NCBI GenBank assembly: GCA_020080175.1
Contig: JAGHQL010000074.1
Location: 53,662 to 117,661, forward strand
Direction: 5' to 3'
Source of the DNA: Glutinoglossum americanum
Lineage: Eukaryota > Ascomycota > Geoglossomycetes > Geoglossales > Geoglossaceae
Length of the DNA: 64,000 nucleotides
Made by a program: the position numbers and the translations under genes. The stretch's first letter is position 1. Each line of letters starts with the position of its first letter. The notes under the pieces are model-generated. The model worked only from the letters and a program-made list of their open reading frames with translations, was not told where the DNA came from and did not search any database. Shown piece after piece: positions 28,703 to 60,887 of the stretch.

Positions 28703-31700
28703 TTAGGAGCTTGGGTCATCTTGTGATTCCTTTCTTCTCTGCTCTTCTGCCCAGTTCACTAGCTGATCCCATGTCATTCCTAGCCATTTCGAGATGTTCC
28801 GGGCGCCCCGTTCCATAGACGGAGTTCTTGTCTCTTCACGCTGATACCTATGGTTCTCTTTGTCTCGTTTGGCCTGAACAGAGGCATTCGGATCCGCGCC
28901 GGACAAGAGGAGAAACCTCATCAACTCGGCGGCTGCTTCACTTGTTTTCGTTGCAGCTATATACAGTGGACTTCTTTTGTAGCGGTTGATCGTCTTTTCC
29001 AAGTTGACGTCGGCACCGCATTCAACCAGCGCTTTCGCTAACACAACAGAGCAAGTCGTCTCCGCTACTGCCTTTAATGCGGCTCCCAAGTCCACCAAGC
29101 TGAGTTTTCCAGAAGAAGCTCGCTCTTTCCAGAGGTTTGACAACCGTATCTGTTGCATAGGACCCTTTGTGGCCCTAATAAGGGGTGGACTCGTGATGCA
29201 CGGATCCCCATACCACCGGGATTTTGAGAAGTTCTTCTCCCAGATTTCAAATACTTCTGCAGTACTAAAGCTCATTGCAGCTTCATGAACTTCCATATCC
29301 CTATACGAGTTACAGGGTTTGGTTTGGATTTCGGCAAAAATCCAGCTCAGAACCTCTATATTATCGCCTTTCATAGATTCAGCGATGATGCTGTACCAGT
29401 GATAATCTGTGGGAGTAAGAGTCTTGAGTAGAAGCTGAACCATTGCCAAAGGTCCGGTGAATGCAGCCAATTTTCTCAGCTCATGTTTGACCTCGGGAGG
29501 CAGCTTGTGAAATTGCGGCAAGAGGCGGCCCACTTCATCTAGTTTGCCCAATGTAATCAAATCGAATAATAATGGTTGAATCTCGTTGTCATTGGGATTG
29601 TCAACTGGTTGATTCAGGTTTGGGGCACCATGTTGATGGCACCGAAGCCAGTGCTTCTGGAATTGGCTTTGTGACTTAAATCCCATAGTGGCAAAGGTAC
29701 ATGTCGGAACCGTACATTTAAATGGACGATCGTGACAATCGACGTGGCTATCGCGAAGTGATCTGGTTTCGAAAGCGATTCGCTGAGAATGACAGACTAG
29801 ATACTTGCATCTGAAAAGAAGTGCTCCATAGTGGCCCTGTAATCTTGAACAGTTACAGTTTGTAGAGTGTCCTGATCCGGGGCAGAGCATCGCTTCTAAC
29901 TGTTCGTAGATGCATGCTGAAGAGTATGACAAAGTAAATGGGTCGGAATCCATCCACGAATCGTCTGTGTTCCAGCACCTTTGTTAGTTCTAAACTAATA
30001 ATATCTCTCGTAGCTTCTACATGTAAATATTATGGGGAAAAGGATTTCACATACCTTCATCAAACCGCCAGTCACCCACGTCAAGCTGGCGGAATTTCGA
30101 AGCGTGACACAACATAGTATACAACTTTGGCCACTTTTCTTTAAAAGTCTCAAGTTCACTATACTCCGGAGTGTGTTTGCTTAGGTCCTTATATCCCATA
30201 TTCTCACGCTCAGTAATAAAATTTTCAAGCAATGTGATCAGCTCATCTGGCGGAGTTTGATTGCGAAGCATTCCCGCGCATTTTCGCACCAGTTCCACCC
30301 ATTGAGAAGCCGCAAAGGCATGTAGACGATATCCACCTGAAATTATATTCTCGGTTAAGTATCCCTTTTCTATTTCGGGGTTAAAGGGATCTAGGCAGAG
30401 ATAGGTTAGGCATGTTGTGGTGAGGTCAACGGTCGCCTGCATCAAGCTGAAGAGGCTGTCAGTTTGTCGACCGAAAAGATATCTTTCGACTCATTAGCTG
30501 TGAAGCCTCTATATATTGCGGCATAATGGCTTACTCCATTACTGTGAAGTGTACAAAATGCAGATGGTCGCCGAGGACCTCTACAATAGGACCGCAGAGT
30601 TGAGCAATATTGAGGGAGCCCTCAATGCGAGGCAGGTGGTCCAGCCGACCAGGCACAATGCATAATGCTTGTTCAACTTCGTTGCGTGTGAGCGGCACAG
30701 GAGAACATCCTATCCATCCCAAAACTCGTCTTGCTCGTTCTCGAAAATTTGGCTGTAAATTATCGAGTCGTCCGAGAACGCGAGCATACCTTCACCATGA
30801 AATGTTATGTTATAGCCCGTAATTGGTCAAGGGAAAAGTAACTCACGCTTCATCCAAGCTCTCTGGAAGTATACTGAGTTCGCTCCGGATTAAATCAAGG
30901 TTATGGCACATCGTTATGCCGTCCATCACGATCCTTGTATACAGGAACATACCTGTACATGCCAAGTTTAGGGGGGATGCTTCGAATAGACATGAAATCA
31001 GAGAGACTAATTTGTAGGACTTACCCTTAGCCTTTGCTGCTAGGGGTGCTAACAGAGCTTTTACCTCCGAGCATACCCGTGCGTCGAAATTGGAGTCACA
31101 CAGCCATTGCTGGGTTCTGCTTGTAATATATGCTTGAAGGCATCCAGCATTCTTGTGGTCCACTCGGATGGTTTGTACATTGTCTTTCAGAATACTAGCA
31201 ATATCATCTTCGAGTCTGCTACTTATTAGAAGTTTTGTTTTATTGCAGTGTTTTAAGATATCCAAGAGTGTACGGAGAGTTATTTGTCGCTCAAGCCGGG
31301 TGATCTCGTCCAGGCCATCCATGATAATGTATGTCGGTTCCGTACACTCCAATAATTTCGACAAGGTTTCTTGAACGAAGTTGGTGTTGTTTTTCAGATT
31401 TCTTCGGTCCGACTGAAACGCGTCGCAGAGGATACTTTGTAGGTTCCGATCCTCTGAGACAAGCTGAAAGATTAAAGAGTGGAAGATTGAGATGGTGGAT
31501 GTGCTATTGCTTTCCCTATAGCTTAAGAAAGCAAAAAGTGTACCAGTACGAGTTAACGCCCTTGCTTTTTCCACAATCTGAGATGATAGATATGTTTTTC
31601 CTAGCCAGGGCTAGTATTAGCGCAGTTGCAGTGAAGGATCACGGGAGGCAGACGAGCCCAGCGTCGATGTTAACCGTAAAATAAATTAACGTAAAAACAG

Positions 31701-37925: not shown

Positions 37926-38418
37926 CTTGCCAGCCAATGAAGCTATCACGAAGGTTCTTAATGCTTCGAGAAATACTAGTTATTACGAAAGAGCATTGTA
38001 AGCAGAGCATTCTGGTCCCCTCCAGTTGCTTTTGTGGTTGCTCTAAGAGGTACGGCTACCCCTGAGTGCGTGCCACCTGGGATCTTGTCTCACAACAACC
38101 TCCAGGATAAAAGGCTAAGGGTGGGAGTTGATTCGCGTTGGAAAAGGTCAGGACGCGAGCCATCGGCAAGTAGTATTGAAGTGTTTGTGGGGCCAAAGTG
38201 ATCTCATGTGCGGTAATACAAATAGAGATCATCTGTAATATTCCTTGTCACCTGACAAATACATGATTGGTAAAGCTAGAAGGAGATCACTGTGAAGTGC
38301 TGTAGAAGGCAAAAACATATCATGGTTACGACGCTTTTAGAAACCAAAGAAAGGACAGATTGCATACAAAAGGGAGATGGCTATCACGGTGGCGGGTGGG
38401 GATGACGCGGATGTCTCA
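37926..38418. other. downstream region of the patatin NLR
   Basis: About 490 bp after the NLR stop codon. No gene seen. Confidence 0.45.
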
Positions 38419-41400
38419 TTAGGAGTTCGATATGAGCCGAGCCAGCAGCTGTGCCATCGTCTCGTGTCCTTCCTTGGCCGCCAGGTCCAGTGCCGTCCGT
38501 CCATCGCGAGTCTTCATATTCAAGTCGGCCCCTTTCTCGAGCAGCAGCCGTGCCGCAGTCTCGTGTCCCTTCTGGGCGGCCAGGTGCAGTGCCGTCCGTC
38601 CATCGTGAGTCTTCACATTCAAGTCGGCCCTTTTCTCGAGCAGCAGCCGTGCCACAGTCTCGTGTCCCTTCTCGGCGGCACGCAACAGCGGCGTCTAGTA
38701 CCATTTTTTAACATGGATTTAGTCGGTCAAAGTCAGGCTCGCTTACTCGCTGTAATGGCCGAGGACGTCGGTGTCAGTCGTCGATTCTTAACTGGAGGGG
38801 GGGAAGAGCTTCACTTACATTCTACAATGGCCGAGGACACAGGTGTCAGTCGTCGATCCTTAATCGGAGGGGAGGGGGAGGGGCTTCCACTTACAGACTG
38901 CAATGGCCGAGGACACCGGTGTCAGTCGTCGATTCTTAAGCGGGGAGGAGGGGGAGAAGGACTTCCACTTACAAGCTGCAATGGCCGAGGACGTCGGTGT
39001 CAGTCGTCGATTCTTAACAAGGGGGAGGGGGAGAAGGGCTTCCACTTACAAGCTGCAATGGCCGAGGACGCCGGTGTCAGTCGTCGATCCTTAACTGGAG
39101 NNNNNNNNNNTTACAAGCTGCAATGGCCGAGGACGCCGGTGTCAGTCGTCGATCCTTAACTGGAGAGGGGGAAGGGCTTCCACTTACAGGCTGCAATGGC
39201 CGAGGTCGCCGGTGTCAGTCGTGGATTCTTAACTGGAGGGGGGGAAGGGATTCCACTTACTTCCTGCAATGGCCGAGGGCGCCAGTGTCAGTCGTCGATT
39301 CTTAACTGGGGGGAGGGGGGAAGAGCTTCCACTTACTTCCTGCAGTGGCCAAGGATGTCAGTGTCAGACGTCAATTCTTAACAGGGGGGAGGGGGGGAAG
39401 GGCTTCCACTTACTTCCTGCAATGGCCGAGGACGCCAGTGTCAGTCGTCGATTCCTAACTGGAGAGAGGGAAGGGCTTCCACTTACATACTGCAATGGCC
39501 GAGGACGCCGGTGTCAGTCATCGATTCTTAACTGGAGGGGGAAGGGCTTCCACTTACAAGCTGCAATGGCCGAGGACGCTGGTATCAGTCGTCGATCCTT
39601 AACTGGAGGGGGGGAAGGGCTTCCACTTACAGGCTGCAATGGCCGAGGACGCCGGTGTCAGTCGTCGATTCTTAACTGGGGGGGGGGAAGGGCTTCCACT
39701 TACTTCCTGCAATGGCCGAGGACGTCGGTGTCAGTCGTCGATTCTTAACCGGAGGGAGGGGAGAAGAGCTTCCACTTACAAGCTGCAACGGCCAAGGAAG
39801 CCAGTGTCAGCCATTAATATGAAGGATCAGGGTGCAGATCACTCACATTGGGAACATAGTAGTAGTTTACCTTCGCACCCTCCGTGAGCAGGAGCTTGAT
39901 GACCGCTTCGCACCCATTTTCAATCGCACTGGCTAATGGTGTACCCCCCCCGTAGTCTTCCTTTTCGATGTCGGCTCCACTTTGGAGCAGCTGTTCCACG
40001 ACTGCCTCATGTCCGTTCCGGGCCGCGTGATGCAGCGCTGCCCTTTCCCAATCATCTGACTTGTTGACGTCAGCTCCGCAGTCAAGCAGCAGTTTGATAA
40101 GCCCCCTCTCGCCAATTTTAGAGGCTGAATGAAGGGCCCAGTCACTCTCGAAATCGAATTCAAGCTTCGTAAAAAAGTGTTCACTCTTTAGGCTTTCAAG
40201 GCAATGATGCATGACGGATGATAGCATCTCCTGAAGTTGACTGTTTTCAGAGCCTAGAGCCACTCTCGCTGACAGGGTTAGAGTGGGTCCATCGAACCCA
40301 ATCAGGAGTTTAGCCAGTTTCATAACAGGTGCTTCGTCCTTATCATAGCACAGCGCTGCTGCATGATATGGCCAATATTTGCATGCGTACAGAAGAAGAG
40401 GTAATTGCTCTGAGCCAGCCTCTTTAGAAGGTTGGTTGTCATAGTGGTGAATGTAGGCAAAACAGCTTTTGAGAATGAACCACTGGGCATCGCTCTCCAG
40501 CAATCGAAATCTCTTCGGTTCAACCCTGTCACATTCTAAATACTCCCTTACGGAGAAATGCGCAAAGGCTATGACTCCATCCTGGCCAATGTCGGGTTTC
40601 TCATAATCGAATTGGTATTGATCGAGGTTCAATACAGTAACAAGTCCAGATAAGATAGCTCGAATATCCTGCGGATCAAACCTATTAGTAGGATCAACTG
40701 ATACCGGATTACCTCCAGAGCTCCGGGATCGGTCACTCGCGAAGACAACAGCTTCGGCAGCTTCATTAAGCTTAAGAGGTCTGCTTGAAAATGCCAACCA
40801 TTGGAGAATAGTATACACTTCATCCTCGTATTTGCTTATGTCCGGTTGTGACAACATACGGCTGTATGTCTCATCCAAATCCTTTGGTAGCTGCTTCAAG
40901 GCCTCCTCGATGTCTTTCTCTCTTTTGGCCCGCCTAAGCTCGATAAGCTGGCACTCAGCATACCGAAATACGCCCTCTGCCTTTCTTGCAAGCTGCTCAA
41001 TCACCTCTTTCTTTAGTTTGTTAGACCATATATTAATCTTAAACTCTGCTATGCGGGTCTCAAGATGTTTTTTGATGTCAGCGTTAACACGCGGATCCTT
41101 GATCGGAACTCTGTGTGGATCGACGCCGTTCTTTTCCGATACCTCACTAATTGTGTCCTCGATATCCTTCTCTTGTCGGCTTGTAATCAAAATGTGCATA
41201 CTACTCCCCACGCCGTGAAGAAAATCTATCAAGAACTCAACGACACTCTCTCGATCTTCCGGCTTAGGACATTCGTCTAGGGCGTCAATGACGATGTACG
41301 TCTCTTCGGATTCCGCCAAGACACTTAGGAACGTTGCTTTCAAGTCCTCGACTTTTGGCTCAGATGCCGGCTGATATTGGCTGTATAACTCCCGAAAAGC

Positions 41401-43116
41401 TCGCGGAAGATGGTAGTGATTATGCCGCTGTGGATCACTACGGACAAGACCACGAACTAACTGAGTTAGAAGGGAATACAAAAGAAGTCGAACGTCTTGG
41501 GACTCCTTTCTTCGAAACGAGAAGTAGTAGAAGGCTAGAACCCCCAATTTTTGCTGCCTGATCTGATCGGCGATCTGATCGATGATAGTTGAACTCAAAA
41601 TCGTCTTGCCGCACCCAGCTGCGAACGTAGGAGAAATCAGCAAAGAATGAGCTTTTGTAAGGCAATACATACCGTTTCCATAAAGCCATAAAAATGACCT
41701 CGGTTGTTTCCTCCACTGTTCAAACTCCCCTTCAAGAAACCAATTTCCCGTTGACTTGGTACGAGCCTCGCGGGCAGGGTTATGATATTCATATGGGTCG
41801 ACATACTTCAGCCACTTGAGGTGTTTTTCTTTGGACGCCTCGTCGAGCGGTATTACTGGTCATAAAGAGGCGAAATGAGAATGGATACATTCAGATCTGA
41901 AACGAGAACATTTACGTACAGGTATTAGGAGCACGGACAGCTGTAAAGGCATCTATTGTCCCTTTTATTTGAGGGATTTGCAAGTAACGTTCTGTAGCCG
42001 CTTCAATCTGTGCAGCCTTCTTATGTTCGTCCAAGCCAATGTCCCCCAAGCCATGCTGAACGTTGTATCGGAAGTAACGGTCGCTGACGCCTAGAGTTTT
42101 ATGATATTTGAAGAATCGCTTCTCAGTCTCCTCAGTTTCTGTTGAGATGGCTTTGAGTGTGTCGACTACTTCCTTCAGATTATCCCCAAAGTCCTTCAGG
42201 TTGGGCATTCCTGTTCCGATGCTCACAATACACTGGATTCTGGAGATAGCATCTGGCCAGATAGACTTTGCCTCGTCAAGGACCACTTCCACAGGGTTGT
42301 TAAACCCCGTTGCTCCATCGATGAACCGCTGTCTGCCGATCTCAACGGGGTCAAAGAACGTAGCTGCCGCAGACGTGGCACGAGCTGCTTGCCAGATGGT
42401 ACACTCCGAGCTCGCCAGCGTATCGACTGCTTCATCGGTAGTGTAGGTGCGGAATAGAACAGGTGTATTCAGTGTTTTGGTAAAAGCACACACAAACCTA
42501 TAAGAAGAAGGGGTTAGCTCGAATATACAAGAAAGGCCCATGCAAGGTTACTAGATATGCTCGACCTACGTTTTGCAAGGAGAATCGGGATCCATCAACC
42601 TGGCCTGGTCATTGCCTTCCTGGGACGCAACAATAGCCTTTATCTCGGAGGCGAGACACTCTGAAGAATATGCTCCATCAACCTCCCAGATATCCTTTGC
42701 CCTCCCGAAAATATTCGGTTTTACCCTCTTCGGTTGGAACACCACTGAGGATAGCCTAACGTATGCATCGATGCAAGCATCAATATCCATTTGGAGTCGA
42801 CCCAGCATGATAGCGATGATCCTGGAATAGAATTAGTCGCTGACTTGTTCAAATATATCTGGATAGTGGGGATAAATAGCTTACCCCCCGGTACTCGTCC
42901 CGCCAATTAAATCAAAATACTCACATGGTTTTGGGGGGCTTTGCGGGTTTACTCTCTTCATCAGGTGTTTGAGAATGATGAGAGAAGAGAGCCCGCGTAT
43001 TCCGCCCCCATCTTTGGAGGTTAGCGGAAGTGATAATATCAATAACAACTGCCTAGCATACCTAATGAGAGTAATCTCAAGGGGGTAGGAGCCGAAGTAA
43101 GACTCGACGAAGCCAT
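38419..43116 (-). CDS. NLR receptor: patatin-like phospholipase, NACHT, ankyrin repeats, with tandem-intron cassette
   Basis: Main exons: 43062-43116, 42885-43011, 42570-42821, 41920-42497, 41673-41855, 39847-41618 and 38419-38694. The first six total 2,967 nt, exactly 989 codons. The start MASSSLTSAPTPLRLLSL leads into the patatin oxyanion loop DGGGIRG (19-25). The nucleophile motif GTSTG is near 56-60 and the catalytic Asp is in FIDGATG (205), so the lipase dyad is intact. NACHT has GNAGCGKT (P-loop, Lys403) and YIVIDALDE (about 505), and HFSVREYLE follows. Ankyrin repeats start near 890. Between 39846 and 38695 lies a tandem array of intron-like units separated by 3-nt micro-exons. The length is 1,080, 1,081 or 1,095 residues with none, one or all of them. 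The last exon holds further ankyrin repeats ending LLARLISNS. Patatin-NACHT-ankyrin proteins are linked to fungal non-self recognition. Confidence 0.9.
38434..38690 (-). repeat. near-identical 99-bp ankyrin-coding repeats
   Basis: In the last exon of the patatin NLR, ankyrin units repeat with a period of 99 bp (33 residues) and differ at only a few bases per unit. The unit GHETxARLLLEKxADLNxKT recurs. High nucleotide identity between adjacent repeats indicates recent duplication or gene conversion, unlike the older, divergent ankyrin repeats upstream of the intron array. Confidence 0.85.
38695..39846 (-). repeat. tandem array of intron-like units with 3-nt spacers
   Basis: Reading the minus strand, the upstream exon ends AAT|GTGAGT at 39847/39846. 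Units of 68-75 nt then follow, each running GTAAGTGGAAG, a C-rich tract, AGTTAAGAATCG, a CTGAC-type branch site, and CATTGCAG. The 3-nt spacers lie at 39780-39782, 39704-39706, 39631-39633, 39558-39560, 39487-39489, 39414-39416, 39337-39339, 39261-39263, 39188-39190, 39115-39117, 39050-39052, 38973-38975, 38895-38897, 38819-38821 and 38747-38749. In transcript order they read L, E, P, L, Y, E, E, E, P, L, L, L, S, N, R. The last intron (38695-38746) is unrelated in sequence, ending TACTAG before ACG CCG CTG. Most unit-length variation is in the homopolymeric C tract. Confidence 0.93.
39101..39110. other. run of 10 N (assembly gap) inside the intron array
   Basis: Ten N bases lie in the C-rich tract of the fifth unit counted from 38,750. 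The missing sequence could be a short C run or several collapsed units, so the true copy number is uncertain. Confidence 0.95.
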
Positions 43117-45309
43117 TACTGAAAGTCCAGAGAATGCCCAAATGTGCCGTGTGATGGCACGCCCCCCAGTTACCTCCCGCCCGCACACGTGGAGCCTCTC
43201 AGCTAGATGACTCAGTCTACATGATGGTGGGGTACCGTCCGTTGCTTCGGTTTCCCGGATATGCAAGACTATTGGACCAGTGACCAAGCAAACGAGCCAA
43301 CCCCGCGACGCCAAACCCGCGACTCCACGAGAGAAAGACTAAGATCCCGGCCTAACTGGCACTATTCGCCAAGCGGTCCCGCCTGTTTACCCTTTGCGCG
43401 CGTCCTTGCATAAGTGCCTTTGTGCAAGGAATAGTCAATATGATCAGTCGCGTGGATGAGCTAGTTCTCGGTTCCGACTTTTTTTTTTTCCCCGAGGCGT
43501 GTCCTCTGTGCGTAGCGTTCATTGAGCATTTAAGCTTATCCAGACTAGCACCTAATCGATCTTGACCCCTGTGTCCAAACAATTCAAGGTCGCTAACCGT
43601 CCACATCCATCGTCGGTTTTTTCCAATCGTGAGGTGTACGGAGGACGGCGACAAAAGTTATGGGGCTTCGCCACTCTCACTAATCTGCAGAGCACTTGAC
43701 TAAAATTTAGACACATTTACTTGCATGGCACGAAAATTTTTTTTTATTACTCACGTACCATCCTCCATTTCCCGCCTTACAGAGCTTTCTCACCTGGGGA
43801 AGAATGTTGCTGAACTAAAGTCAATGCGAGTAATCTCAATATGATGATATGACGTTGGTGAAGAGGGTGAAGAGGTGACGTTGGGTTGTGGCGGCTGAAA
43901 GGAATGTTGCTTTTGAACTTGACCCACAATCACACCATGTTTTTCTACTCGTGGGGTGAGCTCAGGCGAAAAAGGAACTTTTTGTGCGTCCATTCAACAG
44001 GTTGGCCGCTTTTGCGGGATGCGTTACGCGATATTAAAGCAGCCATGCGGAACCGCAACCGCAGGCTGAAGCTAAATCACACGTCAACCATATCCACCTA
44101 ATCATCGTGAAGCACCTCGCCTTGCTTTACTTGCTATCTCGCTCGCAACTCCCGAGCGCGCTCGTGGCAAAGAGAAAGGAAGCTCCTGTGCATCATCTCT
44201 TCCTACACCATCCGACTCGGCTGAGAAGTCGTCCCGCCGTCATCCTCCACTCGCTTGAGCTTATCCTGCCTGTCCACAGCGCGATTGATCATCAGGTCGG
44301 CTGAGCGCGGCCTAAGCTGCATCTGGAACGTGGTGATTTCTTACTGCTGAAGGGACAGCTTGGAGCCAAGGACAAGTTAGCCTTCATATTGAATATCGCG
44401 GGTTAAAGAGGGCAACAGTATCAGTGTGGGAATCTGATATGGGCTTAAAGGAGGATAGAACTCCATACCTTTGTGTGAAGAAGACTGTTGATGATGGGGC
44501 AAAGTTGCTGATTAAGACTTTCACCAGTATTAGAACCTTAAAATCAGATTTTTCTTTGCTCTAGCCCTTCCGGAATGACGATTCATCACCTACATCACCA
44601 AATGCTTCTCTCCATTTCTCTATACCTGCTTTCGTGGACCCAGAAACTGCACCTAAGCCCTTAACTCCAGACACTGCAGCCTCGGTTTCATATGTGACGC
44701 TCTATACCTTTCCCAAACACATTGAATATAGCCAGCAGAAAGTGAAAGGGCCCAACAGACTCGGCTACATGAGAAAGCTGCGGCGTGGACTAAATTGGTG
44801 AAGCGTCCGAGGACATCGGGAAAGTAGTTGGAGGATGGTGGCGAGGCATAATTTGCGGCGAGTGAGGATAAAGCTGAGAGGAAAGATTATGAGAAGGATT
44901 CCCCTAGAATAGATGCAATATCAGTTTGGTACTCTGACCAACGTTCCAGGTCTAGCATTTCTAAGACCTGCACGGGCAGTGCTCGAACGAGCGGCCATAG
45001 TACTTTCCCATTCTGTTCCACTATCTTATACAAAACATGTGCATAAAATGGTGTGTTCTCGACCCCTTCTCAGCTGGAAACATAGCCACGTACCTCGGTG
45101 TTTTCAAACTCATGGGGATCGTGGCGCGGGCGAAGAGGTGGGCAAGTGAAGTGTATTGGGGCGGTTTTGGCCAAGTCATAAAGGCAATCAATCGTCTTCA
45201 GTATCCAGCTAACCGACAGAGGTGAGCACAACTCTCCGGCAGAGTCACGACCAAAAAAGGGTCGCAAACTGTAGTTTACTAACCACTTCCTACCCACTTC
45301 CTACCTCCT
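43117..45309. other. gene-poor region with possible decayed exon
   Basis: No complete gene. An open stretch of about 90 codons starts after a CTCTAG acceptor-like site near 44,570 and includes SSPTSPNASLHFSIPAFVDPE. Another stretch near 44,110-44,260 reads Ser/Thr/Arg-rich (RLALLAISLATPERARGKEK). They may be remnants of one plus-strand gene, but stops separate them. The remaining short frames are featureless. Poly-pyrimidine runs occur near 43,480 and 43,740. Confidence 0.35.
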
Positions 45310-46644: not shown

Positions 46645-47687
46645 ATGCATGTAGAACCCAAACGCAACTCGCATGCTTCTTTAATGGGTGACTATTTGCC
46701 GCTCAAACCGTTCATACCTTCTCCATTAGATCCTCACCTCATTGAGGCCATCACCTACATTGGCTCTGGAGGTCATAGCAGAGTCTTTCGTGTGAATATT
46801 CAAGGCAACACATACGCGCTGAAGCTTGTGAGGGACACCAGATTAATAATGGCTTCCACTCTCTTGCAACTAACCCACGGCACTGGCGTTTCTAGTTTCT
46901 CTTCACGAACCCTCTTGCTTACAATACCGTAAGTCGGGGGCGACACAGCGAATCTACCCTCCGTGCCCACTACGATCCGTTCTATGCTGAATGTCGCGCT
47001 TACGCCTCCATCATCGCTAATGGCCTTAATGGCACATTCGCTCCCTCCTGTCACGGCTCTATCACGATCAATAGCGCTTTTGAGCTTATGCTCGGTCAGT
47101 TGAACCCTGAATACGGCGACTGGGAACGCCAACCGGGACAGGACAATGAGTACGTGAGGGGGATTTTGACTGATTTTTTCGATGGTGTGGAGTTGGCTGG
47201 GGTAAAGCTGACGAGAGAGATTGTGGATGGTGTAAGGGGTGGAATAGAAAAGATGAATAAGATAGGAATTGCGCACGGTGATGTGTTTTCGAAGAATATC
47301 CTGGTCTCGATAGACGGGAGAGTGGTGTGGATAGACTTCAGTGCATCATGGACGCTACCGCATATTGTTGGTGACGTCAAGTATCAGAACCTATTGAGGG
47401 CCAATCGAAGAAGTGTGGAGTGGATGTTCCACATCTTGTCACTTGTGGGTTTTATTGTTCCCATGTCGCAATCTCGGATCTTTCCTAAATGCCATCAGCT
47501 AATGCACGTCGAACATATTAGCTCCCCAACAACCAGCCCTGCTCCTTCGCTGATTACTCTATCCTACCACCACCGCCATACCCGGATGTTTACAATGGGC
47601 GGTACCAGTACCTTTTCCGCCGCGATATCTGGGGTCCTCCGCCTTACGAAAAATATTCCGCTTCAAACAAGGTCTTACAATGATTGA
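46645..47687 (+). CDS. kinase-like protein
   Basis: Two exons, 46645-46827 and 46896-47687, join in phase 0 at ALKL|FLFT and give up to 324 residues. The Gly-rich loop is YIGSGGHSRVFRV and the lysine is in YALKL. The catalytic region reads IAHGDVFSKNILV followed by VVWIDFSAS, so HGD-x4-N and the D of IDF are kept. The HGD and IDF style is closer to phosphotransferase or RIO-like kinases than to classical HRD/DFG kinases. The segment after about residue 240 does not resemble kinase sequence and may hide another intron, so the 3' end is uncertain. The partner gene is the divergent PD-(D/E)XK-like gene. Confidence 0.7.
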
Positions 47688-48088: not shown

Positions 48089-50580
48089 TCACGGACCCTC
48101 ATACTCCATCACGAACACCACCTCAAACTGATCCGCGGCTAGCACAGTCAATCCAAACACCTCCCTACTCGCAACCCCAATCCTGAACCCTGTCGGAGAC
48201 TTTTTCTGGTCACTAATCACTCCTCCGACATCGAAATCCCGATTTCCATTCGCTAGACCGCCCCACTGCCCCTTGGTATTATCCCACGCAATTCTGTAAA
48301 CCTTCCCGGACGTTCCCGTTATGATAACGTCCATGTTGGGCTTCGTATGGTTCCGACGCGTCAAGGCCACGATATCCGACTGTACCGCATCGAACACGGA
48401 ACTAGGCGTCCCGTCTGATATAGACCCCAACTGGTCCCAAAACTTGTTGTTCCCGTCGGCATCCCGTCCTACCCCAGACCAACCCTTCCCCTTCTCCCAG
48501 CTAGACGTCCATATCGCCCCCTTGTCCACAACGAGCAGATTCAATAGTTCCGGACTCCTCGATACACCCGCGACTTTGCTCCCAGCCGGGAAGCCTGTGG
48601 GAGCCGGGGGATCCCCCGACATGCCCGGCGGCCGCGTCCCGACACTCCTGAAGGCCGGTGGATTCGTGCTACCGGATAGGAACCCGTAGACGTACACCCG
48701 GCCGTTGTTCCCGACCATGGCGACTTCCATGGTATCGGAGTTTCTCGAGACGGCGAGGATCTCCGATCGGGCTTGGAAGCCTACCGGCGAGCCGATTTCC
48801 TGCCAGCCGGGTTTGACACTTGTCCAGTCCGGGTTCCCGTCGTTAGCCCAGAATGCCGTGCGGATCGTGCCGTTGTCGTTGACGAATATATCCAACTGCT
48901 TCTCCGCCCGCGAGACGACCGTCATGGGCGCGTTGGCGGGGAAAGTCCGACTCGACCCCGTGATATCCCGCCACCCGGTCCAATCTTGGCCTTCCACCCA
49001 CCACGCCGTGTACACCTTCCCGTCGTTGCCCACACCGAACAGATCCAGATTCTTCTCCATCCGCGCACACCCGGCGATTTTACCCCGGGTAAGAACCGCG
49101 GATCGGATCCCCCCATCCCGTCCAAGGCCCGCCATTCTGCGCTGCTGTTGAACCCGGACCAATCCCCGTCAGACCAGAAACCCCAATACACCCGCCCGTC
49201 CGCCCCGATGAGGAACAGATCCGTGACAGCCCCTGATCTCTGCACGGCGGTCACGCTACTCCCACCCACGAACTGGTTCCCACCCCCCGCAGAAGCCGCG
49301 GCGGAGACGTTATCCCACTCGGACCACTTCCCGGGTTCCAGTGCCTTGCCGGTACCGCCGATGTAGCAGAAGGAGCGGAACTTCGTCGGGGTAAGTGGGT
49401 TGAATTGTATGTCGTATTTGACCTTATCGAAGACGTCCCCCTTGGTCAACTTCCAATTATCCACCCGTGCGTCCTCCCAGCTGGATTGCCCCCACATGGG
49501 TTTAGGCAGCCTCATGATATTCCTGATGAACGCCGCCTTCCCGAATCCTTCTACGGGGAACTTCCCACTGCCCATATCCGTAGAGGTTGGAGTCCCCGGG
49601 TCACTCTTGCCCCGGTCGTAATCCGCGTCGTAGACTTCGCCGTAGACCTGTAACAACGTCGCGTGGTCGGCGAGGGTGTTGGACGGGTCGAGGGGATCCC
49701 AGGTCTTCCCCGTATCCGGGCCTTGGGTGACAGCGGGGGGAGTCGCGGTGAAGAGGCTGAGGGGGTAGTACCCGATCCAGGCGTCGTTCATGTAGAGGTA
49801 CCACCCGTCTACAAGGAACGGGGATTTCTTCACGAGCTGCCACTGCAGGGTCAGGTCCTCCTGCGGGCCGTCAATGTGGCTCGCCGGGAGGAATTTGAAT
49901 CCCACGCCGCGTGTAAACGAGTCGGGGATGAGAGGGATCCAGTCTGGGGAGTCTTGGGCGTAGTCCGTCTTCCCCGCGCCCCAGCTGTCGTATCCCGTGG
50001 TGGTGAAAAATACGAAGAGCTGCACGACTCCGCCGCCGTCGCGTTTCCAGCCTGCTTCGATAGTTTGGAGGGGGTGACTGGGGTGGTTGTTTGGGACGGC
50101 GGTTTGGATGAGGGAGAAGTCTCGCCGTTCGACCTTGGGGCGGAAGCGGGAGAGTATCGTGGAGAGGCCGCAGGAGGGGCCGTCGTTGTAATTGAGGCCG
50201 GCATACCAGCGTTTGTTATGCGCGGTGTCGGTGGCGGAGATGGAGAGGGATTTGAGAAGGGCGCGGTCGAGGGGTGGGGGGAATTTGAGACGGCGGGTTT
50301 GTATGGCTTCCGGGGAGGATGAGGCGGTGGTGGTTTCTTGGACGCTGTTGGGTTTGTGGTCTGTCTTGGTCTCCGCGGGAACAGAGTTCGGTGCGGAGTC
50401 GTGTGGTAGGGGCGATGTGTGCGGAACAACAGGAGCTTCAGAGATCTGCTCGGCATTCTCGTCGGAAGGCTTCGTTGTTGAAGACGGATTGCTTGCCCTG
50501 GCGGTGTCCACTGGGGCTGGGGCTGGTGCTGATGCCGGCATTGGAATCTCACCCGCTGGGTGGACACCCTGATCGGCCAT
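48089..50580 (-). CDS. neprosin-like domain plus lectin-type beta-propeller protein, one frame break
   Basis: Two overlapping minus-strand frames (50580 down to about 49110, then about 49110 down to 48089) make one protein of about 830 residues if joined. After a disordered N-terminus, a region near 90-350 matches neprosin: GWKRDGGGVVQLFVFFTTTGY, WQLVKKSPFLVDGWYLYM and IGYYPLSLF, then YGEVYD. Neprosins are secreted glutamic endopeptidases, but no signal peptide is visible here. The second part repeats D-L-F-x-V/I-x-x-D/N-G-x-V/I-Y units (DLFLIGADGRVYWGFW, NLDLFGVGNDGKVYTAWW and others), as in PLL/fucolectin-type propellers. The frame changes at a run of six G (C6 at 49110-49115 on plus), where one extra base would keep the frame. 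This is either a real mutation or a sequence error. Confidence 0.75.
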
Positions 50581-51838
50581 TGCGTGTCGCTGGATGAAGT
50601 GACAGTTCGTCCCTGAAGCTATTGAAACTCGGCGAGCTTGGTATTATCTAATCTAGGCAGTAAAGTATCGGCACCGCGTAGGGTCCCAACTCGCGAACTA
50701 ATGAGCAATTGCACGTCGCTCCAGAAACAAAAATCAAGGTCACCGGGTCCCTGCTCACCGGCTTTTCTTTCGCAGTGAAGACGCAGAGTCGGTGCCGTGC
50801 AGCCTCGCATCGTTGATCGTCGCCGCGATTGTTCTCGTGCGTGTCATATTTGGCTGCGGGGCCAGATAAGGCGAAAAATATCAACCTGGAAACGATAACA
50901 AGGTGGCCGAGGCCAAAAGAAAAAAGGGACGCGTAGGCCTTTGCCAGCCTAAGCAGCTATTTCAGGGCGTAGTGATCGACTCCGCGCGGTTTTCGAAGGC
51001 GCCACTTGTTGGAAGGCTCCCTGTATTGCAATACTCATACTTTGAGTCGGAGCGATGAGTTTGACCGGTTGGCGATGGAAAGGTGCACGATTACGCGGGA
51101 TGACATTCCAGGGCAGGAAACTCGGTACCGGAAACTCAGCCGGGATGGAAAGCGGGGAAGCGCCCGAGCGCTTGGGTCCCACTAGTCCATCGCTCGCATC
51201 GACCATGCATGTCTCGCGCCACACTACTCTGTACAAGGCTCACCTTCAATGAAACCGCGGCCATGCCCGGTCTTGCAGACTCGAGGTGCAAAACTGCACC
51301 GGTGTGGGTTGTGTGGTCTTATCCTGGATGCGGCGATTAGGCAGATTGTCCAAGACCGAGCTAAGCCCGACGCAAGGGAGATGCGGAGCCAGCCCACTTC
51401 CGTGACGTCTCCTCTTTGGCCGCCTTATGGCTCGCGTGAGGAAGCGTGGACTGCTGGGGTCCCATTTGTCAATTGGATTGATGGGTGGGCTGACTGGGGG
51501 CATGAAGGGAGGGGCTGGAGGCCGGAGCCTGCCGTTGATTGACGCTACGAGGAGCGATATTTCTCTCCGCATTAGGGACGTGGAAAGTGACATCCTCTCC
51601 GCATGGAAAATGGAAAGGGGGGAAAAAGGAAATACGACAGGACACCAAGGGACGGCTGATGCGTCTGGCATATACTCGAGCTGTGGAGCTGGTGTCGCGA
51701 TGACCAAGCTGGCTCAAGCTCTGCGCAGGACGCAAAGTGGTCAGGGTCTTGGGAATCATCCGCCTATCTAGCGATACCTCCCCTCCCGCTCCCACTCCCC
51801 TCGAGTAATTCTGTTTATGAGTTTTCCACCGAATTGAA
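50581..51838. other. intergenic region
   Basis: Frames at 51246-51707 (minus) and 51427-51771 (plus) overlap and have no domain features. No gene is supported. Confidence 0.4.
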
Positions 51839-52162
51839 CTAGTAATACTCGTCTTCTAAGAGCTTTATCAGTTTAATGAGAGGAGCACCACACTTCGGTG
51901 TTCCGTGGTATAGTGCCTGAGAAGCCTCATGGCATACTCTTGGTGTCAGAGGTGTGTGGCAGTCTTCTACTGCCAGTAATCGGAATGGGAGAAGTAATTG
52001 AGGACATCGCCAGCAGATACTAGGTGAAGAACCGGTCATATACTCAACCATCTTGGGAACAAGAGCAAAACAAAACCTATATACAGCGGAATTGGCAGCG
52101 ATAGTAATAGTGCTAAAATACCTTCTATCAAATACCTGAGGAAGACAGATTACCATATTCAC
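51839..52162 (-). other. open frame within a dispersed similarity block
   Basis: A 107-codon minus-strand frame ending at 51839. Its lower part (51893-51975) resembles 23415-23495 at the nucleotide level, and neither copy shows a known domain. It is more likely a repeat remnant than a gene. Confidence 0.35.
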
Positions 52163-52324
52163 TAGGTATCAGTCTGTATTATTTGCTGTGAGTCAGTCCA
52201 AATGTCAACTTAGTCAAATTAGTATTGGACATGTCTATAGCTCAGTTTATGTGTTGGGAGAAGGAAACAACCATATTCTCATATTATCAGTCCCAGCACA
52301 GGAAGAATTTGAATTTAGAAAGAA

Positions 52325-52971
52325 CAGTTATTTACTGAAATACCCTCATTTTCAATTTTAATTACTCAGTTACCTCAAAAACTTAACAAATTACTAAAAT
52401 ACCCTAGCCCCACTACCTACCCTTACTACTCACTATGCTGCTCTGCTGCCCACTCTGCTACCCATTTTGCTGCTCTTCTGTTCACTCTACTACCCATTCT
52501 GCTGCTCTTCTGTTTACTCTGCTGCCCGTTCTGCTGCTCACTCTGCTACTCGCTCTGTGTAACGACTGGGGGTGAGAGTTCCCACATGGCCCAACTGGTT
52601 CAAAAAGACCACAGTACTAGCCGATGGCTAGTATACTCTGACACTATACCTATATACCTGTGCCACTAGTAGCTAACCATTACTGTAGAGGTGGTTCTAG
52701 GTCTGCATGCATAGCCGGGCTGCTTGGCTTAGCAGAGGCACCCTACCTCGCTCCGGCCACCCTCTCTTCTCTCTATAAGACAGCACATATAGACTATCCT
52801 CACCAGCGGCGTGCTTCCCTTTACATTACATGCTGCCTAAACTTCAAAAGAGTGGTGCATAGAGTGGTGGGGTAGACATGAGGTAAAATTGAGGTATTTC
52901 AGTAATTTGTTAAGTTTTTGAGGTAGCCAAGTAATTAAAATTGAAAACGAGAGTATTTCAGTAAATAACTG
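52325..52971. mobile_element. non-autonomous Mutator-type element (MITE) with long TIRs
   Basis: A 647-bp element bounded by inverted repeats of about 80 bp. The left starts CAGTTATTTACTGAAATACC and the right ends with its inverse, ...CAGTAAATAACTG. The 9 bp on both sides are identical, TAGAAAGAA at 52316-52324 and 52972-52980, a target-site duplication of Mutator size. The interior has no transposase and includes a run of CTGCT/ACCCA-like tandem words (about 52,431-52,556). A related right end lies at 58216-58262. Confidence 0.85.
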
Positions 52972-52980
52972 TAGAAAGAA

Positions 52981-53892
52981 AGTAAAGACTGTAGCACAAC
53001 AGGTTACAATAAGGATACTCACTATTAAGTTTTAGAATAGTAATAAACTCAGTATAGGAAGCATAAATTTAATTGCCTTTTATCAATTAAATACATAAGG
53101 ATCTAGTCTCAATTGTTAAAATATATGACATTGCAGGTTGAATTGTTGACATACTGTATTATCTACTTAGGGCATATAGTATTTGGTTAGACCAATAGAA
53201 GGGTGGCAAGTTGCCTAACTCGCTTAGTACCTTACTCATTTTAGAAAGCTTATGTAGACTCAGCGATCAGGAGCTCACAAGTATAAGATTGAGCGAGACC
53301 CTAGTGTCATCTTATTATATATTTTTCTTAGAAGTGAAAAAAATAGGTCACGTACTACCCTATCAAAAAATTGAAAAATCTTGTAGTTTTCTGCATAACT
53401 TCAACTCATTGCTATTTACTTATATATATATTGTGTTTGCAATTCGTATCATTTTTTATTATTTATATTTCTTATTAAAATGTTGCAACAGTATTGTACA
53501 GGCTGTAAACAGTATTGAATGCTTAATTTCTTTATTATTAATCCTTACAGAGTATCGTATAAAACCTGTCAAACTTTACAGTACGAATTTCATCTATCTA
53601 TCTATAAATTTATTTGTAATAGAAAAAACATATTTATTAATATTATTTTATAAGCTAGAAGATGTCGACCTACTATGATAGAATAATTTGAACAAGTTAC
53701 GTAATAAATACAACGCTGAACGATTATGATAAGATTCGATCCAAGTGAAATTCATCTACAATAGCTAATACAACCTATCGTATTTAATTCTATATACTCT
53801 ACTTAGTAACTATTAGATATCAGACCTATAAATCTAATTTATGATACTTGTGATACTTTTTACTAGATCAACGAGCATATTACAAACAGTAC
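52981..53892. other. AT-rich, probably RIP-affected DNA
   Basis: Very AT-rich. The 155-codon frame at 53211-53678 is rich in Ile, Tyr, Leu and Phe, as AT-biased mutated DNA gives by chance. No real gene seen. Confidence 0.5.
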
Positions 53893-53897
53893 GATAC

Positions 53898-54239
53898 TGT
53901 CAGGTCCTAGGGGGGTGCTGCGGGTGCTTGAGGCTCGAGGGGGTTGTTCGGGAGGTCATCCGTGGGCTCGCGAATGAGTTTCCAAGCTCGAATGGGTGTC
54001 ACAGCTCGGCAGAATATCTGGCAGGATGTCAGAGGTGGGTAGGCTGAGTAGGTAGATGAATATGAGCCACCAGGTGGCTTCTATTAGATGAACTATATAC
54101 AAGAGGTGTGTTGACCAATAGAGGTTAAAGAATCAACTCTATCGGTTAGAAAAGGAGCTTGCGGGCTTGGCTCAAGCACAGGCCTTATGCTGATCTAAGC
54201 TTGTAAGCTTTGTCCCTTACGGCTCTGTGTGCCGTGACA
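53898..54239 (+). mobile_element. solo LTR, copy 1
   Basis: A 342-bp unit beginning TGTCAGGTCC and ending GCCGTGACA, with TG...CA ends. It is flanked by a perfect 5-bp duplication GATAC (53893-53897 and 54240-54244). No internal retroelement sequence follows, so it is a solo LTR. It is far less AT-rich than the DNA around it, so it inserted after the surrounding sequence had been mutated. Confidence 0.88.
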
Positions 54240-54984
54240 GATACAGAATTCAAAATTTAAAATCTGTTACAAGAAAGAAGATATTTGTTTACCTGATATA
54301 AAGTTTCTTTCTAACTATTTATGTCAATTATATGAGTCTAAGGAATCCTATACTAAAGATTTTTGTAAACAGATTTGTCAATATAATACTTTTTTGACTT
54401 TTATATCATTATGATATATTGTGAATAAGTATACTAAAAATAAATATAGTGGACCTACTTGTTTTCAAGTACATGGTGAACTTTATCATATTCAAGGTTT
54501 ATTATAGGAAGAAGCAGATAGTATACTATAATATGTATAGTTATTTTTTTACGATCCTACTTATATAGCACAAGTTCAATTTTAACAGAATCTGCAACTG
54601 GATCAATAACTTTTATATTATTTAATTATAATATTATATAATATCAATCCTTTTATCAAATATTACAAAACAGCTTGCAAACAACTTCAAGATGCAACAG
54701 TATGAAATGATAATATATAAATAATATTAAATCTACAAATGCATTTGATCATTGAAAGCACTTTAAATCAACATTATTATAATCTTCCTATAAGCAATAA
54801 AGTTGTACTAATAATTAATAATAAATATAATAAGCTATTCTATCGAAATATTTAACTTATAGATTGTAATAGAACAGAATATACATATATCAGCTCAACT
54901 CATACAGTATACATGTTACTTCACTATGTACTTTTTTTTCCACATGATGATTATGGTTGGTATCTTTATTATAGTAACCACCAG

Positions 54985-55975
54985 GTAAGGGCCCAGTGGG
55001 CCACCAAACAAGCTGAGAAGGAGAGCTAACCTTAAGGAAGGCCAGTAGAGCATAGGGGAAACTACCCTATATATAATACATGTCACAGCATACAGAGCCG
55101 CAAGAGGCAGAACTCGCAAGCTTGGACCAATATGTGGTCTATGCTCAAGCCAAGCTCTCAAGCCCTTTTTCTGACCAACGGAGTTGACCCTTCAACCTTC
55201 ATCGGTTAATATACCTCTTGTATATAGTTTATCTAATAGAAGCTACCCGGTGGCACATATTTATCCTCCTACTCAGCCTGTCTGCCTCTGACATCTCACC
55301 GGACCTCCTGTCGAGCTGTGACACCCATTTAAGCTCAAGAACTTATTCGCAAGCCCACGGATAACCTCCCAAACAATCCCCTCGAGCCTCAAGCGCCCGC
55401 GACACCCCCCTAGGATCTGACAATATACTAAGTCAGTGACATACGAATAAAGCTCACAAGACCCTATCAATGACGTCATGAAGGAACTTCACATGAGAGT
55501 ATAGCCAGTGATGAAGGAACTGCATAGGTATCATGGAAACTCCATATAAGAGTATGGCCGGTAGTGAAGGAACTACACAAGTATTATAGGAACTTCACAT
55601 AGGAGTACAGACAGTAGCAGAAGGTATGGTCAGTGGCAAGAGAACTACAGGAGCATCATAAGGACTTCCCAATGAAAGCATGGCCAGAAGTGAGGGGTCT
55701 GTATGCGTTCATGGAGGGAACTGGGCAGGTCCCTACCTGTGGGCCCCTCAGGGCCATTAGTATATATAGAAGGCTGAGGAGGGTTCAGAAGGAAACCTCA
55801 TCAGTCAATACCATAATCACATTAGATAGATTATTAAGAATCATTAGGCTTACTTTCCTGTCATGCTATATGGCTGACCTCGCTTGCTCTGTCATAATTG
55901 GCTCTTTAAGGCTAGCTCGGCCTTGACATCTACGGCACCCAACCTTTGCAGCCCAGCTTATATAAGTAGCTATCA
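54985..55975. mobile_element. inserted repeat C, copy 1, with 53-bp tandem units and nested LTR
   Basis: Interrupts the Helitron. The start (AACAAGCTGAGAAGGAGAGCTA) and the part after 55,430 match 58266-58765 in inverted orientation, with a solo LTR inserted between them. At 55,479-55,690 a unit of about 53 bp with the words GGAACTNCACA...GAGTATGGCCAGTG is repeated four to five times. The matching part ends near 55,770; the remainder to 55,975 is unassigned insert. Confidence 0.65.
55081..55422 (-). mobile_element. solo LTR, copy 2 (inverted)
   Basis: 342 bp, the same length as copy 1 but on the opposite strand, running TGTCACAGC...GATCTGACA. Flanks are ATACA and ATATA, a 5-bp duplication with one C-to-T change. 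It is inserted within repeat C. Confidence 0.82.
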
Positions 55976-56308
55976 TGTCACGGCACATAAAGACAGGGCT
56001 TGTAAGCTTAGATCAGTATAGAGTCTGTACTTAAGTCAAGCTCTCAAGCTCCTTTTCTGACCGACAGAGTTGATTCTTCAATCTTTATCGGTCAACACAT
56101 CTCTTGTATATAGTTCATCTAATAGAAGCTCCCTGGTAGCTCATATCCATCCTTCTACTCGGTCTATCTGTCTCTGACATCCCGCCGAACCTCCTGCCGA
56201 GCCGTGACACCCATTAGAACTCGAAAACTCTTTCGCAAGCCCACGGACGACCTTCCGAATGACCCCCTTGAACCTTGAGCGCCCGCAGCACCCCTCTAGG
56301 ACCTGACA
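55976..56308 (-). mobile_element. solo LTR, copy 3 (inverted)
   Basis: 333 bp, TGTCACGGC...GGACCTGACA. Flanks are TATCA and CATCA, a 5-bp duplication with one transition. Same orientation as copy 2. Helitron-derived sequence resumes just after it. Confidence 0.82.
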
Positions 56309-57829
56309 CATCACAATCTTAAATTAGAATTGCAAAATCAACAAAATAATCAAATATAAATAAGAATTACTGCACGAGCCTATTATCGCTATCGATTACA
56401 TATTCATAATAATTCACGGCCAATATTGTTTTACGCAAAACAGTTATTTTAATAATAGATTATTGATATATGAACTATTTGCAATCAGATAACCTTATAA
56501 TGATTTCGTATGCATCAATCTAATATTTATTTAAGTTTATACAATAGTTTAATTGATATTATAATTTGTTCAGATATTAATATAACTTCATTAGGTTATC
56601 ATATTATTTTACCATCCAGCTACACAAGTGATAATCAATATATGCAGCAGCTTTTTCAGGATTCTATAGTTATTGTTTATTATTATAGTCAATCTAGTCT
56701 TTTTATTACCTTTACTGCTAATTCAACTTGGGATGAAATAAAACAGGAGCTGTTACCAGGTCAAACAGTAATGGATCAATCTGATATAGTTGCAAGAGTT
56801 TTCCATATCAAGCCAAAAGAATTGTTATATGAATTATGATATAGAAATATTTTTGAACATTATATTAGATACTGCTATACAATTGAGTATCAAAAATGAA
56901 GTCTTTTACATATCCATTATCTTTTATTTTTATATCCAGATGATCGTTTTTTAGATGTATCATCTATTAATGAAATTATCTGTACTGAATTACCTGATTC
57001 AGTATTAGATCAAACAGGTAAACTCAAAGAATTGGTTTTATGATTTATAATTCATAAATTATATAAAATTATAGAATTAAATATACCTTGTATGATTCGT
57101 AAGTATATAGCAAAATATGGTTCTTGCTTGAAATAATATTCATGATCATTTCAATTAGAAACAATTGTTAAAGACAACAAATATCTACTTTATCAATATC
57201 GAAATAATAATCGAACTTGAAATATGAACTCCAGAACTTTTATTATAATAGATGACAGATAGATTATTTTATATAATTTTTATTTAATTAAGCATTATAA
57301 AGTATATATTAATGTAGAGATTTATGCTTCAATAAAAGTTATAAAGTATATTCATAAATATATTTACAAAGGTACTGATTATTTTATAGTTCATTTATAA
57401 AGTTAAGATGATAAGATCTTTAGATATTTACAAGAAAGATATATAGGTTCTACAGAGACTATATGGTGATTCATGGAGTTTCCAACATATGAGAAATACC
57501 TACCAGTAATGCATTTAGCAATACATTTTTCAGAAAATTAACCAATATATTTTACAGAGAATATTGGCTCTGAAAACTTGTAACAATATATTAATAATGC
57601 CCGTTCTATACTTATAGTATACTTTCAATATAATATGGAGTATGAAGATAGTCGACAATATCTGTACCAGAAGTTTCCAACTCATTACATTTATAAACAG
57701 AAGGAAAAGATTTAGTAAACATGAAAACAAGGTACTAGTATAGGTTACATGTATTATTATAGTCTATTTACTAGTGAGCAATATTATTTGTAAATGTTAC
57801 TGACTATTGTACAAGGTTCATAATTCTTT

Positions 57830-58215
57830 GAAAGCCTCCGCACTATCAATAATATTATCATAACCCATAGTCGGTTACCCGGTGAGGCCATTTAGGCCTC
57901 CACAGCTAGGTAACTAGCTCAGGTTATGCAAACATCAACTTGTCTATATAGCTATATAGATTCTGTAAATGTACATCTTTATTACTTTATGATGTCTGGT
58001 TCATTATTGAATATCTGTTGTATATATAAGCAGCTCGCTAGCCTTCCACTGAAGGTTACCGATGTGGAGATGGGATCCATGTCTAGATAAGGGCAATCTG
58101 TTGAGGTTGAGGTTACGTGAATTCGTAATTCTCTTGGCAGAGGCATGCATATAAGTAGCTAGCTAAACGTGTAGTTACGAACAAGCAGCTCACCCACCGA
58201 CACTGAAATTGCCTC
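57830..58215. other. second insertion in the Helitron, unclassified part
   Basis: GC content rises at about 57,860 and the Helitron reading is lost until about 58,770. No known element is recognised here, and the segment is followed by a Mutator-type TIR remnant. Confidence 0.45.
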
Positions 58216-58262
58216 CACACCAAGTAATTAAAATTAAAAATGAGGGTATTTTGGTAAATAAC
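58216..58262. mobile_element. remnant right end of the Mutator-type MITE
   Basis: CCAAGTAATTAAAATTAAAA...GTAAATAAC matches the right terminal repeat of 52325-52971 with a few transitions. The left end was not found. Confidence 0.6.
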
Positions 58263-58265
58263 CCT

Positions 58266-58765
58266 ATATACTAATAGCCTTGAGGGGCCTACAGGTAGAG
58301 ACCTGCCCGGTTCCCTCTATAGACATGTATGGACCCTCTGCCCCCGATCATGCTTCTATTGGAAAGTTCTTATGATGCCTATGTAGTTCTCTCACCACTG
58401 GCCATACCTTCCGCTGCTACTCATACTCCTATGTAGAGTTCTTATAATGCTCGTACAGTTTCTTTGCCGCTGGCCATGCTTCTATATGAAGTTCCTATAA
58501 TGCCTATGCAGTTCTTTCGCCACTGGCCATACTCCCATGTGGAGTTTCTATGATATCTGTGCAGTTTCTTCGTTGCCAGCCGTACTCTCATATAGAGTTC
58601 CTTCATGACGTTATTGGTGAGGCCTTGCAGGCCCTATTTTTATATCATCAACTTAATGTATTACATATAAAGTAGTCCCCCCTATGCTCCACTAGCCTTC
58701 CTCAGAGCTAGCTCTCCTTTTCAGCTTGTTTGATAGCCCACCAAGTCCTTTCCTGACAGCCATCA
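58266..58765. mobile_element. repeat C, copy 2 (inverted relative to copy 1)
   Basis: Inverted match to 54985-55080 plus 55430-55770. Contains about five tandem units of about 53 bp (58,351-58,612) with words such as GTAGAGTTCTTATAATGC and CACTGGCCATACT. It carries no LTR insertion and so shows the uninterrupted form. It ends at AGCTTGTTTGATAGCCCACC. Confidence 0.65.
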
Positions 58766-60560
58766 TAATATTGCTTTGTAAGAGGATTACTTAAAGATAA
58801 TCAAGAATAAATTAATTGTTTTACAGAAGTAGTACTTTTTTCAATAGGTTTTATATTTCATATATTATTTATTATGACGTTATTATATGGTAATATAATG
58901 AATCCTTTAAATATATGGTTATTATTTTTTATTAAATTATGTGATGATTTTTTACATATATTAAATCATTGAACAGATCTTCCAGCTGATTTAAATGGTA
59001 ATTATAGTTTATATTTAATTGTATAAATTTTTATGGAGCATAATAATTCTCTTGTAAACCTTCATTTATCTCTTTCAGTTTATAATTAGAGTCATATTTT
59101 AAATAATATAAATAATATTAATAAATCAAATTATAATATAGTTTATAAAATAGAGTAATAAGATTTACAATATGCACAACTTAATACAGATTAAAAATGA
59201 TGCTTCAACACTATTATTTCTTCTATATCAGAATCATTAAGTACATGCTTTTTTTTACAAAATCTAGCAAGTACAGGTAAAATATTTCTTTATCAAACAC
59301 TATATCATTATTATTGTACTTTAGGAAAAACAGTTCTATGTGTTATTTTATTAGGTATTGCAACGTTGTTATTACTAGATAAAAGAACATCATATTTCCA
59401 TTTTAAAATTTTGCTTTCTGTAAATAAAGCATCAATTTGTATAGTTTCTAAAACTTCTATGTTAGTTAATCTTCTACTGAAAACAGTACTTATCATCTGA
59501 GATAAAATACCAATGTAATATAAATATTGCTTTGAAGCAATATATCATATGTTGTGTGATATCCATAATGATTCATCTTTATTTGATAAAGTACCAATTA
59601 TATTAGAAGGCAATTTTAAATAGATATTACCAGTTGTTCAAAATAGTAATCATACTGATATTATTACTGTTTATATTCAACAATCTTTTATATAGTCAAA
59701 ATTACAGTTACTGACATTACAACAGAATATGCGAATTTATATGAATGAAGTAAATTAGTAATATGCTACTTAGATATAGAATTTATTATATAATTCTAAA
59801 CTTTATAATCATATTTTTTTTCCAGATTCTATACTTCAATTCCAATTATTTGCAGCCTATTGCAATCATGTTTATTTAGTACAAAAACTCGCACAAGCAT
59901 ATATTACTTTATTTTTCTTCCAGAATTAAGTTATTTTTTTTATGCATAATAATACTATTACTGAATTTAATAATTATCTTTTAGAATATCTTTCTGGAAC
60001 TATATGGAAGTTTAACTCTATTAATTTTACTAATACAGATAATACAGATTTGCAAAATAATTAACATCCAATTGAATTTTTACAGAGTTTATATTCAGCT
60101 AACTTACTCTTTTTATATCTTCAATTAAAAGTTAAAGTACTTATAATTTTTTTACAAAACCTATATTCTATATAAGGTTTATATAACAGTACCTGTATGG
60201 TTATTATATATTTTAGACAGTATTGTATTAAAGCTTGCATACTTGGTGGATACTTTTATGATCAGTTATGATTGATTCTACATATTAAATTATTTATAAC
60301 AGAAGGTGAGTATCCTTTTATATTAATTTGTAAACAGTTTCCAATTTGTTTATACTTTACAATGACTGTTAATAAAGTACAAGGTCAATCATTAAATGTT
60401 ACAAATGTTGATTTATGATCTTCAGCTTTTACATATAGTCAATTATATGATGTATTATTAAGAGTTACTAATATTAATAGTTTTAGTATTTTATTTTCTA
60501 AAAATAGTAATAATAAAACTAATAATATTATATATTTTGAAGTTTTACTTTTATTATAAA

Positions 60561-60887
60561 TAAATTATATTTTATTACAGTCTTTTACAAAACTTTACAG
60601 TACTTTATAATTACTATATTTCTTTATATTTCTTTATATTTCTTTATTTTTTTTTATAATTATATAATTAATCATTATTTAAATCAATTATCTTCTTTTC
60701 TTCATCTCCTAGCTTATTTACTATTTTCAATAAAGTTTCATACATCAATTTATGCAATTTTGCAAGTTTACAAAACCGTTTTTTGAGTTACAGCTTTGTT
60801 TTCTTAATTGTAGTTCTGCAAGAAACTGTATTTTATTTTTTGGGTTCATTTTTGTTCATATCAAATGTAAGTATATTTGAATATTAA
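60561..60887. other. AT-rich tail of the Helitron region
   Basis: Extremely AT-rich, with three tandem TTTCTTTATA words near 60,620-60,645. No gene. Confidence 0.5.

Follow-up and report, generated by a model that had tools for sequence, protein, structure and literature searches.

The closest described system is the NACHT-ANK (nank) receptor family of the black truffle Tuber melanosporum. Four papers, in their passages on this family (PMC4986451, PMC3689799, PMC9815663, and PMC10197012), report 3-bp exons and alternative splicing, all citing Iotti et al. 2012 (Fungal Biol 116:261-275), and give the number of these exons as 'tens', 'dozens' or 'multiple' depending on the paper, with no number in the passage of PMC10197012. 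As portrayed in these citing descriptions, the family resembles the locus presented here in encoding a receptor of the NACHT-ANK type, in having codon-sized exons (candidates at this locus) that number from tens to dozens, and in placing variation in the C-terminal recognition domain.

Other systems, as far as the cited accounts describe them, share single aspects of this arrangement. The highly conserved, hypervariable WD40, ANK, and TPR repeats of Podospora NLRs consist of near-identical units in tandem, in which a few codons at the binding surface evolve fast, but it is the coding unit itself that is repeated there, whereas an intron and one codon are repeated here (PMC4986451, PMC12222747). 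Schistosome micro-exon genes likewise diversify their proteins with very small exons (3-81 bp) and alternative splicing; they are, however, animal secreted-protein genes with introns of up to 5 kb and mixed exon sizes (PMC10526429). The alternatively spliced 3-bp exon of Drosophila homothorax is a working one-codon exon, but a single one and not an array (PMC7392893). Fungal introner-like elements and sister stwintrons are near-identical introns multiplied in one genome, although they are dispersed across genes (PMC4457414, PMC8469720). Finally, in intron gain by tandem genomic duplication, a tandem duplication likewise makes splice-site pairs, but the outcome is one new intron from exon sequence and not an array with single codons (PMC3443670).

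The window, i.e. the whole stretch of 64,000 nucleotides of Glutinoglossum americanum that was analysed, carries on its minus strand a receptor gene interrupted by an array of intron-like segments, numbered u0 to u15 along that strand. Its features are as follows.

42881 to 43198, minus strand: ORF with the first piece of a patatin-like phospholipase domain, the N-terminal effector (Pfam PF01734, E 2.4e-06, 28.3 bits, cut-off 27.7).
41912 to 42547, minus strand: ORF with the second patatin-like piece (Pfam PF01734, E 1e-09).
39847 to 41859, minus strand: NACHT (NPHP3_N) domain and first ankyrin repeats (Pfam), with at least one short intron placed by eye and with AAT as the last codon before the array.
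39783 to 39846, minus strand: u0, the first intron-like segment, with a GTGAGT donor and a 3' half common to the repeat unit.
38750 to 39782, minus strand: u1 to u14, each with its preceding triplet, 14 copies of a unit of about 73 nt (triplet plus intron-like body of about 70 nt).
39101 to 39110, no strand: 10 Ns inside u10, a probable assembly gap and the only Ns in the window.
38747 to 38749, minus strand: last triplet, CGA (R); any one codon, CGA included, restores the 7-residue spacing of the ankyrin junctions.
38695 to 38746, minus strand: u15, which closes the array (GTAAGC...TAG); intron-like, but no copy of the repeat unit.
38419 to 38694, minus strand: downstream exon with the last ankyrin repeats (Pfam Ank_4 E 3.8e-25, Ank E 6.5e-24) and the stop codon.

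The ORF at 39814-41859 matches NPHP3_N (E 8.3e-30), NACHT (E 1.2e-07), and Ank_2 (E 2.2e-18), the ORF between the two patatin pieces (42566-42832) has no Pfam match, and the reading frame runs cleanly after the array to the gene end at 38419. This domain order is the layout of a fungal NLR, and the patatin, NPHP3_N/NACHT, and ankyrin matches around the array bear out the initial annotation, which had placed it inside an NLR gene. In the part of PMC12258605 that deals with them, 95% of the patatin NLRs of Sordariales are of the NB-ARC type, so that patatin plus NACHT would not be the usual pairing in that order. Two plus-strand ORFs run across the array (38341-39159 and 39233-39748); neither has a Pfam match and we take both as by-products of the repeat. 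The window also contains a second NLR-like gene on the minus strand (28703-31610), with NPHP3_N and NACHT matches and ankyrin matches near the cut-off, a GC-rich minus-strand ORF with a Neprosin domain match (48922-50643), and a plus-strand ORF with FTA2 and Kdo kinase-like matches (46896-47687). The region 52001-62000 is AT-rich, with a GC content of 0.29-0.38 per 2 kb (0.45-0.60 elsewhere in the window), and is possibly repeat-derived.

The locus thus combines NACHT and ankyrin repeats (Pfam NPHP3_N, NACHT, and Ank) with 15 candidate exons of 3 bp, the latter read as sequence. Because domain type, exon size, and exon number closely match the Tuber melanosporum family as its citing papers present it, we class the arrangement as known, and the array is very probably a member of the nank-type system by this analogy. 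It had been regarded as undescribed, with dispersed introners as the nearest comparison; the four citing papers do describe 3-bp exons in a NACHT-ANK family, and that family is the closer comparison. We are therefore probably dealing with an example of a known oddity from the black truffle receptors rather than with a new one.

Read from the sequence, positions 39846 to 38695 of the minus strand hold 16 intron-like segments separated by 15 triplets, in the order CTT GAA CCT CTT TAT GAA GAA GAA CCT CTT CTT CTT TCT AAT CGA. In all 15 cases, exactly 3 nt lie between an acceptor and the next donor, none of the triplets is a stop codon, and the flanks (AAT|GTGAGT and TAG|ACG) put both outer junctions in phase 0, all as previously proposed. 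The segments measure 64 nt (u0), 62-75 nt (u1 to u14, the 62 nt being u10 with its Ns), and 52 nt (u15). As assembled, the array is 1152 nt long, a multiple of three, and read-through reaches a stop at codon 11; both the copy number and the exact length are uncertain because the 10 Ns interrupt u10. Tandem Repeats Finder reports a 73-nt period with 9.5 copies (39111-39810) and also a higher period of 443 nt (38742-39810). The initial annotation spoke of about 15 units that each carry full splice signals; the units are indeed intron-like, but only u1 to u14 are full copies of one unit, u0 resembling it mainly in its 3' half and u15 not being a copy.

Such a clean tandem repeat might also be a minisatellite within one 1152-nt intron, in which the splice-like signals are incidental and splicing takes place from the outermost donor to the outermost acceptor alone. 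Direct joining of the outer sites would preserve the frame, and one ancestral copy would account for the regular spacing: as the copies descend from one another, the 3-nt gaps do not represent 15 independent coincidences. Nevertheless, an intron of 1.1 kb would be exceptional in the receptor gene, in which four other introns, placed by eye, measure 54-72 nt and have ordinary signals.

The splice signals are largely, but not uniformly, those announced for the array. The GTAAGT donor is present in 13 of the segments u1 to u14, whereas u0 has GTGAGT, u15 has GTAAGC, and the donor of u10 is cut by the Ns after GTAA. A suitably placed CTGAC branch motif occurs in 14 of the 15 segments u0 to u14, with CTGAT in u3, but the sole CTGAC of u15 is separated from the donor by about 12 nt, a distance too short for it to function, and a CTAAA beyond it offers a poorer alternative. 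Of the 16 segments, 14 end in CAG and the other two (u13 and u15) in TAG, the acceptors claimed. In u0 to u14, the donor lies 37-55 nt from the branch A and the branch A 18-24 nt from the AG, which is a suitable spacing for spliceosomal introns (the values for u6 are from its second CTGA match, those for u10 include the N gap, and u15 was unscored). A strict intron pattern (GTRAGT, CTRAY, and YAG at fungal spacing) matches 14 of the 16 segments, all but u10 and u15, and only two other places in the remaining window, both strands searched; it is absent from the second NLR-like gene on that gene's strand. Since u0 to u14 each have their own donor, branch motif, and acceptor, 3 nt apart (the donor of u10 being partly hidden by Ns), we rejected a stwintron.

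No further convincing copy of the array unit was found in the 64-kb window, where all matches were short and weak, the best array match being 19 nt (E 0.75), and the exact unit pattern had no match in viral and prokaryote contigs.

The substitution pattern among the copies is more independent evidence than the regular spacing. We aligned u1 to u14, dropping u0 and u15, and compared column classes on a tree; the counts in the column table leave out u0 and u10, and the allele and haplotype counts leave out u10. Over the 14 copies, the splice signals have a relative rate of 0.17, the other body columns one of 0.76, the pyrimidine tract one of 1.09, and the triplets one of 7.6; evolution is thus slowest in the signal columns, and the triplet columns outpace the unit body by a factor of about 10. 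With a separate triplet rate, the log-likelihood was -383.80 instead of -394.13 (likelihood ratio 20.7, p 5e-6), and splitting the remaining column classes raised it further to -378.63 (likelihood ratio 10.3, p 0.006). With signals and tract excluded, the rate of the triplet still exceeded that of the body (likelihood ratio 14.4, p 1.5e-4). These p values are optimistic, because the copies are related and may recombine while the test assumes a tree, and they should be read as strong hints. The triplet also ranks first among 76 three-column windows, which overlap one another and leave out the leading triplet columns. None of the 194 signal cells of u1 to u14 deviates from GTAAGT/CTRAY/YAG, two of them being minority cells that are both permitted, against 34 minority cells among 568 in the other body columns; on variability alone, the difference between signal and other body columns is borderline (Fisher p 0.059).

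Fast triplets and slow signals are what would be expected if the units were spliced and the codons translated, and favour this reading, at the level of the DNA, over a silent minisatellite, which predicts neither and fits poorly. Taking this together with the points above, we regard the single large intron as very unlikely.

The triplets might instead be a mutation hotspot, for example at junctions left by the copying of units, with a diversity that is silent on translation. Among the seven distinct triplets, some pairs (CTT and GAA, for example) share no base at any position, as a hotspot could produce, and their encoding seven different residues is uninformative, because seven random sense codons do so by chance 32% of the time. 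The fast region, on the other hand, is exactly one codon, in phase, which a hotspot does not readily account for, and we consider this explanation improbable. The block GAA-CCT-CTT is present twice, before u2-u4 and before u8-u10, so the triplets of these blocks were inherited with the DNA and not remade.

The position of the array in the ankyrin domain was compared with the other junctions between repeats. Five ankyrin junctions were found by script, and in all four others the spacer is 7 residues. At the array junction, skipping every codon would leave a spacer of 6, inclusion of R or of any other single codon one of 7, and inclusion of all 15 one of 21. Full skipping, as in the minisatellite reading, thus departs from the other four junctions. 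The last triplet, CGA, encodes R, which also occupies this position at three of the four other junctions; the last two triplets are AAT, identical to the codon before the array, and CGA, which gives the residue expected after it. These identities are compatible with an origin by tandem duplication of an intron together with a codon.

Pfam scores of the predicted isoforms were rejected as a judge between them, since they are contradictory: Ank_4 favours R (100.8 bits) or NR (108.0 bits) over none and all 15 (86.5 bits each), whereas Ank_2 favours all 15 (134.6 bits) over none (107.1 bits) and R (98.3 bits). The top Ank_2 score would suit a constitutive arrangement, in which the 16 introns are always removed and the 15 codons always kept, so that splicing does not vary and a single protein with a long hairpin loop results. 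Every unit is a good short intron, and intron definition in fungi would presumably remove each of them. Such a protein would, however, have a spacer of 21 instead of 7, its Ank_4 score is no better than that of full skipping, and the passages on the truffle family speak of alternative splicing. We consider constitutive inclusion rather unlikely. A further variant, in which mostly one codon is used per transcript, would keep the spacer at 7 and change only the tip residue, with diversifying selection on the single-codon exons and the introns between them kept uniform; we consider it unlikely and put it forward tentatively.

Overall, we regard it as highly probable that these are real one-codon exons of the Tuber nank kind, whether their use varies or is constant. 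We propose that short spliceosomal introns, arrayed in tandem with 3-nt exons between them, interrupt the ankyrin sensor domain of a patatin-NACHT-ANK receptor gene. At one ankyrin junction, an intron next to the R|T position would have been tandemly duplicated with one flanking codon, and unequal recombination would then have added copies. Human introns have reportedly come from tandem arrays, in work ascribed to Zhuo in 2007. Each unit would be spliced out as an ordinary fungal intron of about 70 nt and the codons included in varying sets, thereby altering the hairpin. Because every exon is one phase-0 codon, any set of included and skipped exons stays in frame, which upholds the frame-safe character attributed to the array; with 15 codons, 32768 inclusion patterns are possible, and the distinct peptides number 6976 if the empty one is counted. 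From the ankyrin consensus, we take the array to lie in a hairpin, so that 0 to 15 variable residues would be placed between two ankyrin repeats, in a region of ligand contact. In a Podospora NLR, all positively selected ankyrin sites but one fall in inner helices and in the hairpin/loop region, according to the relevant section of PMC4986451.

No signal of Dscam-like competing RNA pairing, which would impose a single choice, was seen in duplex energies against one unit relative to mononucleotide shuffles (z -0.6 for u0, 1.5 for u15, -1.7 for the 100-nt upstream flank, and 0.9 for the downstream flank). In the folding of the units themselves against mononucleotide shuffles, u10 being excluded for its Ns, 13 of 15 segments have z of at least 0 and u12 has z -0.15. 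Unlike the repeat copies, u0 (39783-39846, minus strand) folds better than its mononucleotide shuffles (z -3.8).

Exons of such a size are easily overlooked in annotation and read mapping, as stated for other organisms in published accounts, and the rate pattern offers a simple, RNA-free sequence test for translation and selection of such arrays. Fungal NLRs need varied sensor surfaces, and a run of one-codon exons would give many sensor variants per DNA copy.
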